A stretch of 35,127 bases of DNA from Desulfosporosinus sp. (lineage in GTDB: Bacteria; Bacillota; Desulfitobacteriia; Desulfitobacteriales; Desulfitobacteriaceae). Within the stretch, counting starts at the first letter, position 1, and the number at the start of each line of letters is the position of its first letter. A program made the translations under genes and the position numbers. Shown piece by piece: positions 6,681-34,591 of this stretch. Under the pieces are notes generated by a model that had not been told where the DNA came from, did no database searches, and was given only the letters and a program-made list of their open reading frames with translations. The stretch spans positions 1-35,127 of the forward strand of contig JAIMKP010000032.1 of assembly GCA_020692355.1 (NCBI GenBank). Reading direction: 5' to 3'.

Positions 6681-7472
6681 CTATCCGTGCTGGCGGCTGG
6701 CTCCGACGTGGAAATGTGAGCGTTCATGAATCAAATTGACATCGAGTAGAAGCTTGCGGTCAGAGAGGATTTGCAGAACCGGCCCATCAGCGGCCAAGGT
6801 GTGGTTTTCGTTCACAACAATGGCTCGCTCAGCGATATCTTCGACAATCGAGAGATCATGGGTTGCGGTAATGATCGTCTTTCCTGCCTGCTTTAGGGCC
6901 ATCAGAAATTCGACTAGCCAAAACTGGGTGCGAGGATCGAGTCCATTGGTTGGCTCATCCAGAAAGAGAACCTCTGGATTCACAGAAAGGACGCAGGCCA
7001 GGGCGACCTTCTTTTTCTCCCCGCCGCTTAAACGATAGGGCGGGCGTTCCAAGAGGTGCTCGATACCGAGAAGCTTGGCTACATCCTCAACCCGATAAGT
7101 TGTTTCCTCCGGAGAGAGCCCGCTCTGCAGCGGGGCGAAGGCGAGTTCGTCCCAAACGGTGGCGGAAAAGAGCTGAGCATCGGAATTTTGGAAGACAAAG
7201 CCGACCTTTTGGCGAAAAGGTTGCAGGAATACGGGATCCTGAAGCGCATTTTCTGTGAGTTCATGCCCGAAGGCCGTAATCTGACCCTGAATCGGAAAGA
7301 TGAGGCCAGAGAGAAGCTTGAGTAAGGTCGATTTACCGCTCCCGTTCGCGCCCAGGATGGCCAGGCTTTCCCCTTGATAGACATCGAGGGTGACACTTTC
7401 GAGAACCAGCTTGTCCGGGAGATAATGATAGGTGAGGTTGTCCACGGCAAAGAGAAGCGGGCGTTTGTTCAT
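6681..7472 (-). CDS. cbiO: Energy-coupling factor ATPase CbiO (cobalt/nickel importer)
   Basis: This is the ATP-binding subunit (263 aa) of an ECF-type metal importer. The Walker A motif GANGSGKST, a Q-loop region near VGFVFQNSDAQLF, the signature LSGGEKKKVALA, the Walker B motif LFLDEPT and a switch His in ATHDLS are all intact. VFQNSDAQLFSATV is characteristic of EcfA/CbiO ATPases rather than ordinary importers. It starts two bases after the cbiQ stop and is therefore translated in the same operon, cooT-cbiQ-cbiO. No S-component (CbiM/CbiN) gene lies in the window, so the substrate, Co2+ or Ni2+, is inferred from the cooT partner. Confidence 0.9.
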   Translation of the reverse strand: MNKRPLLFAVDNLTYHYLPDKLVLESVTLDVYQGESLAILGANGSGKSTLLKLLSGLIFPIQGQITAFGHELTENALQDPVFLQPFRQKVGFVFQNSDAQLFSATVWDELAFAPLQSGLSPEETTYRVEDVAKLLGIEHLLERPPYRLSGGEKKKVALACVLSVNPEVLFLDEPTNGLDPRTQFWLVEFLMALKQAGKTIITATHDLSIVEDIAERAIVVNENHTLAADGPVLQILSDRKLLLDVNLIHERSHFHVGASRQHG

Positions 7473-7474
7473 GA

Positions 7475-8437
7475 TTATTCCCCCAAAACTTTATCGGCGG
7501 CATAGAGGGTCAAAGCGGAAAAGAGAACGATGCCGGAGGCAAAGAGATCGAACAAGCGTAGATGAAAGCGCTCCACTGAGCGGATTTCCCCTGTATAGCC
7601 GCGGGCGAGCATGGAGAAGTAGATTTCTTCACTCATCTGGTGGGATTTGCCGAAAAGCCCAGCCATAGACGAGGCAATGAAGCGGCGCTGTTCCTTTGTG
7701 GTCGAGAATCCGGCATCACGGGCCTTGCGGGCAAGAAACATCTCTTCCACCGCAGTGACCAGGACGAAAAGATAACGGTAAGTCATTTCCAAGGCAGTGA
7801 CAAAGACTTTTGGCAAGAAGAAGCTGCGCAAAGCCCGTAGAAGATCATGCCAACGTGTGGTTAACGTGAGTACCACGGCGAGGCTGACCGAGATGCCAAC
7901 CCGGCTAATGAGGAGAATATCCCCTTTAAGTCCTTGCCAGGTGATCGCTAAGGTGGAGGGAAGGTGAAGCGGTCCGAGATGCAGTGGCTGCCCGATATCC
8001 CACAAGACCCAAAGCGCATCACCGGGACGAACCCAGTTAAATAGCGCGGGTATCGCCATGATTCCGGTAAACAGGGGAACGACTAACCAGACTTTTTTCA
8101 AAATAAAACGAACTGAGAGACCGGAAAAGGAGGCAGCCACCAAGAGGACGAGGTAAAAACCCCAGAGGAGGGTGAGGTGGCGAATCAGATTCAGACTCAA
8201 AAGGAGGGTAAAGAGAGCAGCCACTTTGACCCGAGGGTCGAGGGATTGCAGAAACCCAGGTTGGGCGGCCACCCCTTCCGAGAAGACGGAGTCTTGGAGA
8301 AACTGGATAATATCTTGCAGGGTCTTGTGGATAAAGCCGTGCTTGGATCGGCGTTTGATTTTAAAGGGTCGCCCGCTTGGAATGCCAGTCGCAGGGGAGG
8401 CTGGGCTATTTTCTCGCAGCCAGGTGGGTAGATCCAT
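7475..8437 (-). CDS. cbiQ: ECF transporter transmembrane subunit CbiQ
   Basis: This is the 320-residue T-component of the importer, with five to six hydrophobic segments. The two cytoplasmic coupling motifs are recognisable: ARKARDAGF near residue 240 and the second one, SMLARGYTGE, near residue 280 (A-R-G type motifs that dock on the ATPase). The first 60 residues are a hydrophilic extension (MDLPTWLRENS...), which I have kept because GGAAAGGCAGG lies before the ATG. Some CbiQ proteins begin similarly. It lies 67 bases after cooT and two bases ahead of cbiO. The missing substrate-binding subunit must be elsewhere. Confidence 0.88.
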   Translation of the reverse strand: MDLPTWLRENSPASPATGIPSGRPFKIKRRSKHGFIHKTLQDIIQFLQDSVFSEGVAAQPGFLQSLDPRVKVAALFTLLLSLNLIRHLTLLWGFYLVLLVAASFSGLSVRFILKKVWLVVPLFTGIMAIPALFNWVRPGDALWVLWDIGQPLHLGPLHLPSTLAITWQGLKGDILLISRVGISVSLAVVLTLTTRWHDLLRALRSFFLPKVFVTALEMTYRYLFVLVTAVEEMFLARKARDAGFSTTKEQRRFIASSMAGLFGKSHQMSEEIYFSMLARGYTGEIRSVERFHLRLFDLFASGIVLFSALTLYAADKVLGE

Positions 8438-8504: not shown

Positions 8505-8729
8505 TTAGGTCTGGATCTGAGGTTCTGGGGCGGCAGGTTCTACGGTCGGTTCAAGCAGGATCCGATGGCTGAGTAAGGTCATGTCCTTGATGCGTGCTTT
8601 GACAAACTTCTGGCGGCCGAAAATGTCCACGAGTTTAAGGCCGTCTTCGTAGGGCTCGATGATGTCGATGGCTTCCATGAAAAGGGTCTCTTCGTTTCCG
8701 TGTTTGAGATAGGCGTTAGCTTCACACAT
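8505..8729 (-). CDS. cooT: CooT-family nickel-binding protein
   Basis: This 74-residue protein starts MCEANAYLK, the hallmark of CooT, a small nickel-binding protein first described in the carbon monoxide dehydrogenase maturation locus of Rhodospirillum rubrum, where Cys2 contributes to Ni binding. The rest is a beta-rich SPOUT-like core ending in a Pro/Glu-rich tail (VEPAAPEPQIQT). The start is fixed by the ribosome site AAAGGAG (in GAAAGGAGCGC) and by Cys2. The same frame is open up to 8846, but that part is leader RNA, not protein. It heads the cbiQ-cbiO operon, which supports nickel as the imported metal. Whether the host makes CO dehydrogenase is not shown here. Confidence 0.88.
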   Translation of the reverse strand: MCEANAYLKHGNEETLFMEAIDIIEPYEDGLKLVDIFGRQKFVKARIKDMTLLSHRILLEPTVEPAAPEPQIQT

Positions 8730-8757
8730 TTTAATAGCGCTCCTTTCAAGATGAAAA

Positions 8758-8809
8758 ATAAAAAAGGCTAGGAGAATCCCGTGAACGGGTGAGGCCTCCA
8801 TGGCCTTTA
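8758..8809 (-). promoter_or_regulatory. Structured leader RNA with mutually exclusive terminator (leader A)
   Basis: On the minus strand, GGCC (8805-8802), AUGGA (8801-8797) and GGCC (8796-8793) form a small hairpin. It is followed by a second hairpin CCCG-UUCA-CGGG (8789-8778). The 5' arm AAAGGC (8808-8803) can instead pair with GCCUUU (8768-8763), which runs into a U-tract, giving an intrinsic terminator. GGAG/CUCC adds inner pairs to that form. It sits between the promoter and the cooT ribosome site, so it could switch transcription of cooT-cbiQ-cbiO. A similar element lies at 33011-33067. No known riboswitch class comes to mind. Confidence 0.55.
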
Positions 8810-8882
8810 TTTCCATCAGTATTGAATTAAAGAGAATAAACAACACACGCTAAAGCGTTATCCGATATTTGTGTCTACATTT

Positions 8883-8911
8883 ATTATATATTTATTCTAC
8901 GCAAGGTGCAA
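8883..8911 (-). promoter_or_regulatory. Sigma-A promoter of the cooT-cbiQ-cbiO operon
   Basis: TTGCAC (8911-8906), a 17-base spacer and a perfect TATAAT (8888-8883) face cooT. The predicted start near 8876 leaves a leader of about 147 bases. The 5' part of that leader holds a further hairpin, ACGC-TTTA-GCGT, near 8846. Confidence 0.75.
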
Positions 8912-9024
8912 AAATCCTTTTAAGAAAATAAAATAATTTTTGCACGAATAGGTTTACATGATTTTTGTGAAAAAGGGGAATTCTTTGTGGCGAGTATAAT
9001 TTTTATGTTGGGGGTGCAGTAAAG

Positions 9025-9243
9025 ATGCCAACCATTCGTTTTGATGGCCCAGTTCTGACCATTGATCAGAAACGTAGTCTTGTTCATGGAATGACACAGG
9101 CCGCCTCGCAGGCTATTGGCCTGCCGATGGCTGCATTTAATGTTGTCTTAGACGAACATGACCGTAGCAACATGGGGGTGGGCGGAGAACTCTTGCCAGA
9201 GAGCCCCTATTCGCAGCAGTGGAAGGAGAGCTTAGGGGATTAA
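9025..9243 (+). CDS. 4-Oxalocrotonate tautomerase family protein
   Basis: This 72-residue protein begins Met-Pro, so removal of Met would expose the N-terminal Pro that acts as general base in the tautomerase superfamily. The length and the pattern PTIRFDGPVLTIDQKRSLVHGMTQAAS match 4-OT-like enzymes, which work as hexamers of small subunits. GGGGGTG precedes the ATG with good spacing. The C-terminal half (NMGVGGELL) is also family-like. It is a single gene followed by a terminator and transcribed away from cooT. Its true substrate is unknown; these proteins are often annotated only at superfamily level. Confidence 0.82.
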   Translation: MPTIRFDGPVLTIDQKRSLVHGMTQAASQAIGLPMAAFNVVLDEHDRSNMGVGGELLPESPYSQQWKESLGD

Positions 9244-32972: not shown

Positions 32973-33010
32973 ATTGGATAAAGTTGCTATGAAAATTGAA
33001 GATTAGAAAA

Positions 33011-33067
33011 ACAAGACCATGGAGGTCGACTGGGCTGAAGCCTAGGCGATTTTTTGTGGTCTTTTTT
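33011..33067 (+). promoter_or_regulatory. Structured leader RNA with mutually exclusive terminator (leader B)
   Basis: GACC (33015-33018), AUGGA and GGUC (33024-33027) form a small hairpin, followed by CUGGGC-UGAA-GCCUAG (33030-33045). The 5' arm AAGACCA (33013-33019) can instead pair with UGGUCUU (33057-33063), which ends in six U. Compared with the leader at 8758-8809, the AUGGA loop is the same while the stem bases change together (GGCC/GGCC to GACC/GGUC, and the terminator arms likewise). It precedes a cooT-like micro-ORF and a NiCoT gene. Confidence 0.55.
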
Positions 33068-33085
33068 GCTGAGAAAGTGAAAATT

Positions 33086-33136
33086 ATGTGTGAAGCCAAT
33101 GCGTATATCAAAAATGAGGAACAGCAAGAAAAGTAG
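33086..33136 (+). pseudogene. Sixteen-codon cooT-like micro-ORF
   Basis: The frame reads MCEANAYIKNEEQQEK and stops. Its first nine residues equal the CooT start encoded at 8729 (MCEANAYLK) except Ile for Leu, including the nickel-binding Cys2. The rest of CooT is missing. It lies 33 bases before the NiCoT start, after a leader similar to that of cooT. It may be the stump of a lost cooT gene or a retained short peptide. Its ribosome site (GAGAAAGTG) is weak. Confidence 0.55.
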
Positions 33137-33169: not shown

Positions 33170-34192
33170 GTGAGTCGCATAATCGGAAGAAAAACCGTTA
33201 CAAGTCGCCCAAAGTGGCTCCGCTACGGAGTAGCGGTTACAGGAATACACATTATAGGACTGTTAATATTGTTCCTTAATGCTAGGCAATATCCACAACT
33301 TTTAGGTTTTAGTTTTCTGGCATATACCTTTGGACTACGTCACGCTTTTGACGCTGACCATATCGCGGCTATTGATAATACAGTGCGTAAAATGGTACAA
33401 CAGAAAGAAAATCCTTTAGGGGTAGGATTTTTCTTCTCACTCGGACACTCGACAGTTGTTTTCATTATGGCGTTATTAACTGCTTTATCAATGGGATGGG
33501 TTGAAAAGAATGTACCGCAGTTAAAAGAAATTGGGAGCGTAATCGGAACAAGCATATCGGGAGGTTTTCTTGTTCTTATAGGATTGTTTAACTTTTATAT
33601 TTGGCTTGAGGTTTATCAAGTGTTCTCAAAGTTAAGACGAGGTGAATATAACCCGGAAAATTTAGATAAATTCCTAGTCAATGGAGGTTTTCTATTTCGT
33701 TTTTTCGGTCCGCTTTATCGCATTATTAATAAAAGTTGGCATGTTTACCCGCTTGGTTTTCTGTTTGGTCTAGGCTTTGATACCGCTTCGGAGGTGGCTC
33801 TATTAGCAATCTCTGCAAATGCCGTAACACAGTCAATGCCTTTTATGTTGATTTTGTGTTTGCCCATTTTATTTACAGCGGGTATGAGTTTAATGGATAC
33901 AGCCGATGGAGTTTTTATGACCACAGCGTACAATTGGGCTTTCTCCACACCTTTACGCAAAATCTACTACAACCTGTCCGTCACGGGTTTGTCGATAGTG
34001 GCAGCATTGTTCATCGGTCTGATTGAATTGGCTCAAATACTTACGCCCAAACTTGGTCTAAAGGGTGGGATCTGGGAATGGATACAGAACCTTGACTTTA
34101 GCGGAATCGGTTATTTGCTTGTAGGGCTGTTTGTTTTGGCATGGTTTTTCTCTTATTTACTATGGAAGGTCTTACGGCTTGAGAATGCCTGA
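33170..34192 (+). CDS. NiCoT-family nickel/cobalt permease, first copy
   Basis: This 340-residue secondary transporter has about eight membrane spans. The signature HX4DH is at His58-Asp63-His64 (RHAFDADHIAAIDN), followed by FFFSLGHSTVVF and the later GLGFDTASE and AGMSLMDTADGVFM motifs that define the family (HoxN/NixA). It should bring Ni2+ or Co2+ into the cell with high affinity. It starts at GTG 33170 behind AAAGGTGAGG. A related second copy begins at 34713. A local change to AT-richer DNA and codon use compared with the glutamine operon is visible, so transfer into this place is possible. Confidence 0.93.
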   Translation: MSRIIGRKTVTSRPKWLRYGVAVTGIHIIGLLILFLNARQYPQLLGFSFLAYTFGLRHAFDADHIAAIDNTVRKMVQQKENPLGVGFFFSLGHSTVVFIMALLTALSMGWVEKNVPQLKEIGSVIGTSISGGFLVLIGLFNFYIWLEVYQVFSKLRRGEYNPENLDKFLVNGGFLFRFFGPLYRIINKSWHVYPLGFLFGLGFDTASEVALLAISANAVTQSMPFMLILCLPILFTAGMSLMDTADGVFMTTAYNWAFSTPLRKIYYNLSVTGLSIVAALFIGLIELAQILTPKLGLKGGIWEWIQNLDFSGIGYLLVGLFVLAWFFSYLLWKVLRLENA

Positions 34193-34242: not shown

Positions 34243-34338
34243 AAGAGAAGGAGTCCTTAGCTATCTTAAGTTGTTGCTTTGGTACTGTACAAACTTAATT
34301 GATTCATGATATTATAAGATACAATTAAATATCTGGGG

Positions 34339-34498
34339 ATGAGTGATTCTTTTCCGAGGGAAAGAATTGAAAAGGAAAGTCAGTTGAAGCTGACGCGGTG
34401 CCCGCCACTGTAAAAGGGAGTCAACTCGTTTAATGTCACTGGACTATATCCGGGAAGACGTGAGTTGATGATGATCCTGAGCCAGGAGACCTGCTCAT
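34339..34498 (+). promoter_or_regulatory. Cobalamin (B12) riboswitch aptamer
   Basis: The conserved core GACGCGGTGCCCGCCACTGT (34392-34411) and the B12 box AGCCAGGAGACCTGC (34481-34495) are both intact. ATGAG (34339-34343) and CTCAT (34494-34498) close the P1 stem. Adenosylcobalamin binding should turn off the downstream NiCoT gene. This is a known arrangement for cobalt importers. Confidence 0.93.
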
Positions 34499-34591
34499 AC
34501 CAAACGCTGCGGCGACTACCTACGGGATGTTAGGGAGGTGAATGCCTGTGTTTTTGGTACTTTTACCTGATACTGGTTAGAACTTTCATTT

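Follow-up and report, generated by a model that had tools for sequence, protein, structure and literature searches.

In the RAT antiterminators of BglG/LicT, a protein holds a hairpin that overlaps the 5' arm of a terminator. ANTAR sites consist of a tandem pair of hexaloop stem-loops, the second of which overlaps the terminator; CsrA sites have an ANGGA core; and the NiCo (czcD) riboswitch is a large four-way junction RNA that is found mainly before efflux genes. The mechanism of the EutV-type ANTAR leaders has been described (PMC3369931). For nickel uptake, NikR-independent control of nik operons was inferred from the patchy distribution of NikR (Zhang et al. 2009, PMC2667541). CooT is a dimer that has a nickel affinity of 9 nM, through Cys2, and Rhodospirillum rubrum cooT mutants need nickel added to grow on CO (PMC6006190).

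Here, we analysed a window of 35,127 nt from Desulfosporosinus sp. (the whole stretch of DNA, contig JAIMKP010000032.1) and found two copies of a leader for which the evidence is strong that it is a transcription attenuator, with a conserved small hairpin and an intrinsic terminator that exclude each other. We found no earlier description of this element in the literature (open papers), and Naville and Gautheret (2010) mention no nickel or cobalt leader. The two copies and the genes next to them are as follows.

8756..8811, minus strand: attenuator copy 1, whole element with hairpin, inner hairpin, terminator arm and U run (sequence; folds)
8793..8805, minus strand: small hairpin GGCC-AUGGA-GGCC, proposed antiterminator and putative protein site (exact pattern match; phylum-wide AYGRA loop)
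8763..8768, minus strand: copy 1 terminator 3' arm GCCUUU, pairing with the 5' arm of the hairpin (minimum-energy fold)
8760..8765, minus strand: copy 1 terminator U run (sequence)
8883..8912, minus strand: promoter-like site TTTGCA-18-TATAAT (consensus match only, 10 of 12)
8505..8729, minus strand: cooT, nickel-binding protein (PF10133) of 74 aa, proposed reader of the hairpin (Pfam E 5.6e-25)
7475..8437, minus strand: cbiQ, transporter subunit (Pfam PF02361)
6681..7472, minus strand: cbiO-like ABC ATPase (Pfam PF00005; CbiO name from position)
33009..33071, plus strand: attenuator copy 2, whole element (sequence; folds)
33015..33027, plus strand: copy 2 small hairpin GACC-AUGGA-GGUC (exact pattern match)
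33056..33067, plus strand: copy 2 terminator 3' arm GUGGUC and U run (sequence; fold)
33086..33136, plus strand: truncated cooT remnant of 16 codons, MCEANAYIKNEEQQEK* (translation; compared with locus L101 of genome G008)
33170..34192, plus strand: NicO-family high-affinity nickel transporter (Pfam E 6.3e-105)

Copy 1 reads, on the minus strand from 8811 to 8756, AAUAAA GGCC AUGGA GGCC UCA CCCGUUCACGGG AUUCUCCUA GCC UUUUUU; the small hairpin is followed by an inner hairpin that is variable, by an arm able to pair with the 5' half of the small hairpin, and by the U run. The core of the element is a 13-nt hairpin, GRCC-AUGGA-GGYC, whose 5' arm is also the 5' arm of the intrinsic terminator. By itself, the GGCC-AUGGA-GGCC hairpin folds at -8.1 kcal/mol. 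The full leader of copy 1 reaches -17.5 kcal/mol as the terminator vs -13.7 kcal/mol with the small hairpin enforced, and the leader of copy 2 reaches -26.3 vs -15.3 kcal/mol. A first-pass annotation of this DNA had proposed two mutually exclusive folds with a common 5' arm, and both the fold energies and the covariation of the two helices bear this out. It had also noted that the partner copy keeps the loop with a compensating stem change, which is correct, as a G-C pair of copy 1 becomes A-U in copy 2 (GACC-AUGGA-GGUC). The promoter that it described as mapped-looking is only a consensus match and not a mapped start, with 3 sites found for the pattern vs 1.1 expected by chance. The genes on either side of copy 1 are divergent (tautomerase at 9025, plus strand); hence, copy 1 cannot serve to end an operon that lies upstream.

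Copy 1 stands before cooT-cbiQ-cbiO; Pfam agrees with the earlier gene calls of CooT, CbiQ and an ABC ATPase, and the window CooT matches the PF10133 profile at 87.9 bits, which places it in the CooT family. Copy 2 precedes a cooT remnant and the NicO gene, not a cooT-cbiQ-cbiO operon; G008 has the intact order element-cooT-nicO, with cooT where the window has the remnant. At gathering scores, the sole Rfam match in the whole window was a cobalamin riboswitch (34324-34512, plus strand, 101.6 bits) downstream of the NicO gene and separate from the element, with none on the element itself. Two relaxed Rfam searches of the motif-bearing loci, with the NiCo and cobalamin riboswitches included, also gave no match on the element, in line with the earlier statement that it fits no known class.

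We found seven exact matches to GRCCATGGAGGYC in the organism's own genome and none to the reversed pattern. Six of the seven lie ahead of operons for metal uptake, namely both window copies and four copies arranged as tandem pairs, of which one pair leads to cobN, chelatase-like genes and a FecCD transporter, and the other leads to CbiM and a short ORF (FmdE-like by eye, no Pfam match). The seventh match (C60:28151), which is antisense inside hypE and without a terminator, was set aside as probably chance. At one of the tandem loci (L008:2796-14199, contig C45), chelatase-like ATPase/VWA proteins, cobN and the FecCD transporter all lie under the tandem elements, and the CobN-type chelatase there may handle nickel.

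The own family of the organism holds about 95 copies (control 0), and the pattern with a terminator matched in 37 of 46 own-family genomes, with a reversed control of 0 in all of them. Some Desulfosporosinus genomes have many copies, which precede nikABC-like operons, cbiM/cbiQ, Peripla_BP_2-FecCD-ABC systems, fmdE with a methyltransferase, trmO with His-rich tails, and cooT. A covariance model was built from 51 own-family copies and run on 398 genomes sampled evenly across the phylum; the window copies match it at 1.0e-7 (copy 1) and 8.7e-6 (copy 2), both being in its training set. The model found matches far outside the own family, mostly before nickel genes again. Further covarying copies exist, which leaves the idea of the leader unrefuted on this point; the motif occurs before cooT, cbiM and nik genes, kinds that had been named among the places to look. 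A looser pattern matched at about 133 places in 63 of the 398 genomes vs 5 reversed-control places; the searched genomes are related to one another and some are incomplete.

In a scan of 85,000 genomes, the matches listed include Bacillota, many Deltaproteobacteria/Desulfobacterota, and a few others, such as Nitrospirae and Anaerolineae MAGs; among the matches listed are Carboxydocella thermautotrophica, Thermincola ferriacetica, Syntrophaceticus schinkii, Paradesulfitobacterium ferrireducens and Desulfosarcina cetonica. The element recurs in anaerobes of at least two phyla, Bacillota and Desulfobacterota. The element of G346 is weak, and the sites in G046 and G344 (before ECF S-component-like genes), as well as those in G190 and G284, seem to be chance matches or to have some other use. 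At three loci (L072:8006/8189, L105:13100/13150 and L079:4625/4860), two elements stand back to back and point in opposite directions, one for each of a pair of divergent operons. In Desulfosporosinus sp. BG, an element-like site lies at most 1 kb before an anaerobic ribonucleotide reductase-like gene, identified by eye (L077:6909 and L254:4407).

Using a six-frame profile search, we found core nickel/metal genes within 2.5 kb downstream of 72 of 84 own-family elements vs upstream of 22 of 66, and the genome-wide pattern set gave 48/87 downstream vs 14/75 upstream. The stricter core-gene count is quoted because the TonB and DUF4198 profiles were made from the same loci. This enrichment confirms the link to nickel uptake that the annotation had drawn. 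The downstream genes are cooT, cbiMQO, nikABC, nicO, TonB/FecCD systems and fmdE, and DUF3842 is a frequent member of the element-led operons; in Desulfobacterota, TonB receptors with FecCD systems, DUF4198 proteins and CbiM lie behind the element. At L203:2260-3087, L204, L205 and L206, CooT is fused to a DUF4198-like domain with a histidine run, in the order DUF3842-fmdE-cooT, and cbiM is close to the fusion in L203 and L204. TrmO homologues with long His-rich tails are in the same regulon as cooT at L096, L097, L098 and L089. A search for NikR gave no match in 19 motif-bearing genomes, and the control genomes gave matches.

The loop is AYGRA in 95 of the 101 elements read. The search patterns fixed A, G and A of the loop and much of the stem, and in loops outside the own family the two pattern-free positions were Y in 89/90 and R in 85/90. 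Loop position 2 stands against the terminator 3' arm as C-G in 49 elements, U-A in 39, U-G in 8 and a mismatch in 5. Since the loop bases covary with the terminator 3' arm, the two folds exclude each other. Across 67 elements, the terminator helix was 93% paired vs at most 51% when slid, and 68 cells changed on both sides vs 22 in shuffles (0/500 as high); the small hairpin was 98.5% paired, with 17 double changes vs 7.3 in shuffles.

Bases that form the loop in one fold belong to the stem in the other and are still limited to Y and R, which is more than the terminator alone would demand. The 5' arm and the loop are kept beyond the needs of the terminator and the 3' arm drifts by G-U pairs, and the rest of the element varies freely in length and sequence (alignment A1). 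The terminator was the better fold in 101/101 elements; hence, the hairpin must be held by something for the genes to be read through. On these comparisons, the element is best described as a new family of RNAs within a known kind of control, putative protein-dependent attenuation.

We propose that the 5' segment of the leader forms either the small AYGRA hairpin, which would act as the antiterminator, or pairs with the downstream arm to give the intrinsic terminator, and that the terminator would win over the small hairpin without a helper. When nickel is scarce, a trans-acting protein on the AYGRA hairpin would keep the antiterminator in place and the uptake genes would be read. With ample nickel, the protein would be loaded with the metal and release the hairpin, the terminator would form and transcription would stop. 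The metal-free protein is assigned the holding, and nickel the release, because the hairpin forms first and the genes import nickel. We infer that a protein binds, that this protein is CooT, and in which direction the system responds to nickel. That this is a nickel-uptake attenuator whose AYGRA hairpin is bound by a trans-acting protein, most likely CooT, has in our judgement an even chance of being right.

By genomic association, CooT is the best candidate and the most likely reader of the hairpin. In the phylum sample of 398 genomes, CooT was present in 53 of 63 motif-bearing genomes vs 66 of 335 others (p 1e-22), and when collapsed by family in 22 of 28 vs 20 of 112. Among 108 genomes drawn separately from the phylum that includes Desulfosarcina cetonica (Desulfobacterota), CooT was present in 24/24 motif-bearing vs 41/84 others, and it was present in 36 of 40 genomes picked from the wide scan. 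The cooT gene is often next to the element: in 28 of 68 cases the two are within 600 nt of each other, with the element on either side of the gene, and the reversed control gave 0. Cys2 of CooT is invariant in 28 aligned sequences, and its AlphaFold model matches CooT 6fan from Carboxydothermus hydrogenoformans (Z 11.7); a fold search with CooT gave besides CooT only weak rows, RimM-type among them at Z of at most 4.0.

The co-occurrence of CooT and the element may reflect a common nickel-enzyme lifestyle in genomes that are related, and no element was found in 66 of 119 CooT-bearing genomes. The known role of CooT is that of a CO-dehydrogenase accessory protein, and it has no RNA-bound structure. 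PF10133 gave no match in G047 (99% complete) or in G403 (92% complete), though the element precedes nickel genes in both, and CooT as the sole universal reader is not fully supported in view of these two genomes. The wider proposal, that CooT is a nickel-sensing RNA-binding antiterminator with an AYGRA-hairpin nickel regulon in Bacillota, Desulfobacterota and others, replacing NikR, is tentative and its chance slightly short of even.

The same attenuator could be read by an FmdE-type protein, the runner-up to CooT, in which the metal-binding core would sense nickel and the C-terminal zinc finger would bind RNA. FmdE is present in 53 of 63 motif-bearing genomes vs 95 of 335 others, fmdE is often within the regulon (also in G047, which is without CooT), and an FmdE-family member in the motif-bearing loci has a dksA/traR-type zinc finger. 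In addition, the paper on the FmdE structures put forward a role in RNA binding, through the zinc finger that some members have, or in metal sensing; most PF02663 genes lie next to metal transporter genes, and a Desulfitobacterium FmdE-family member bound Zn/Ni (PMC2954224). However, FmdE is the weaker predictor once CooT is given (odds ratio 3.9, p 0.02), whereas the association of CooT with the element persists within FmdE-positive genomes (odds ratio 11). FmdE is also missing from G383 and G422, both with strong elements before cbiM, and from 7 of the 40 wide-scan genomes, and the ORF behind the own-genome tandem elements has no Pfam score. FmdE is a good but weaker candidate, and we consider it an unlikely reader. 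Another protein, such as DUF3842 or one encoded elsewhere, is unlikely too; it would make CooT and FmdE merely regulon members. Neither of these two is in every motif-bearing genome (G403 is without both) and DUF3842 recurs in element-led operons, but there is no positive pointer to any specific third protein.

The leader position, the attenuator layout and the metal-transport genes would also suit a true riboswitch, with Ni2+, Co2+ or a nickel complex bound directly by the RNA. However, known metal riboswitches are far larger than the conserved part of this element, a 4-bp stem with a 5-nt loop beside a variable remainder, and no Rfam family matches it. A protein-bound antiterminator is likelier, because a typical aptamer would need more than a 5-nt loop, and a riboswitch seems highly improbable. 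The first-pass annotation was right in seeing a new attenuator-type leader, whereas its term "riboswitch-like" is doubtful, given so small a core, which resembles a protein site more than a ligand-binding aptamer, and a presence that tracks CooT over two phyla. The own-family loop AUGGA agrees with the ANGGA core typical of CsrA sites, but 71 of 101 phylum elements have no GGA in the loop (AYGAA and others); since most loops are without GGA, CsrA was ruled out as the reader, with next to no probability left to it. Plain intrinsic terminators with no regulation, for which the terminator being the strongest fold would speak, have an equally minimal chance; this reading was rejected, because conservation of the 5' arm and loop exceeds what a terminator needs while the 3' arm drifts, copy 1 sits between divergent genes, and the genes marked by the elements form a single functional group.

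The proposed attenuator would explain how nickel uptake can be controlled without NikR in many strict anaerobes that depend on nickel enzymes, and it gives a testable role to CooT and possibly also to FmdE and DUF3842, all of them conserved small proteins. The pattern and the model flag likely nickel transporters, which are hard to tell by sequence from cobalt or peptide transporters. A metal-sensing protein that works through RNA antitermination would be unusual, and we know of no established bacterial example.

Compared with known systems, NikR likewise governs nickel uptake operons; however, it is a DNA-binding protein, unlike this RNA element, and is absent from the 19 motif-bearing genomes. 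The NiCo riboswitch is, like the element, a leader related to nickel and cobalt, but the element has no Rfam match. The own-family element shares with CsrA/RsmE sites an ANGGA-like loop on a short stem; unlike those sites, most elements elsewhere have no GGA, and the element would act by competing with a terminator and not by blocking the ribosome. In ANTAR leaders of the EutV type, an RNA-binding protein competes with an intrinsic terminator, as we propose here, but an ANTAR target was ruled out on the definition given above, as the element has one pentaloop hairpin per terminator (alignment A1). The RAT antiterminators of BglG/LicT likewise have a short hairpin that overlaps the 5' arm of the terminator and is held by a protein, as proposed for the element; unlike them, the element has a 4-bp stem with an AYGRA pentaloop, precedes nickel and not sugar genes, and implicates no BglG-type protein.
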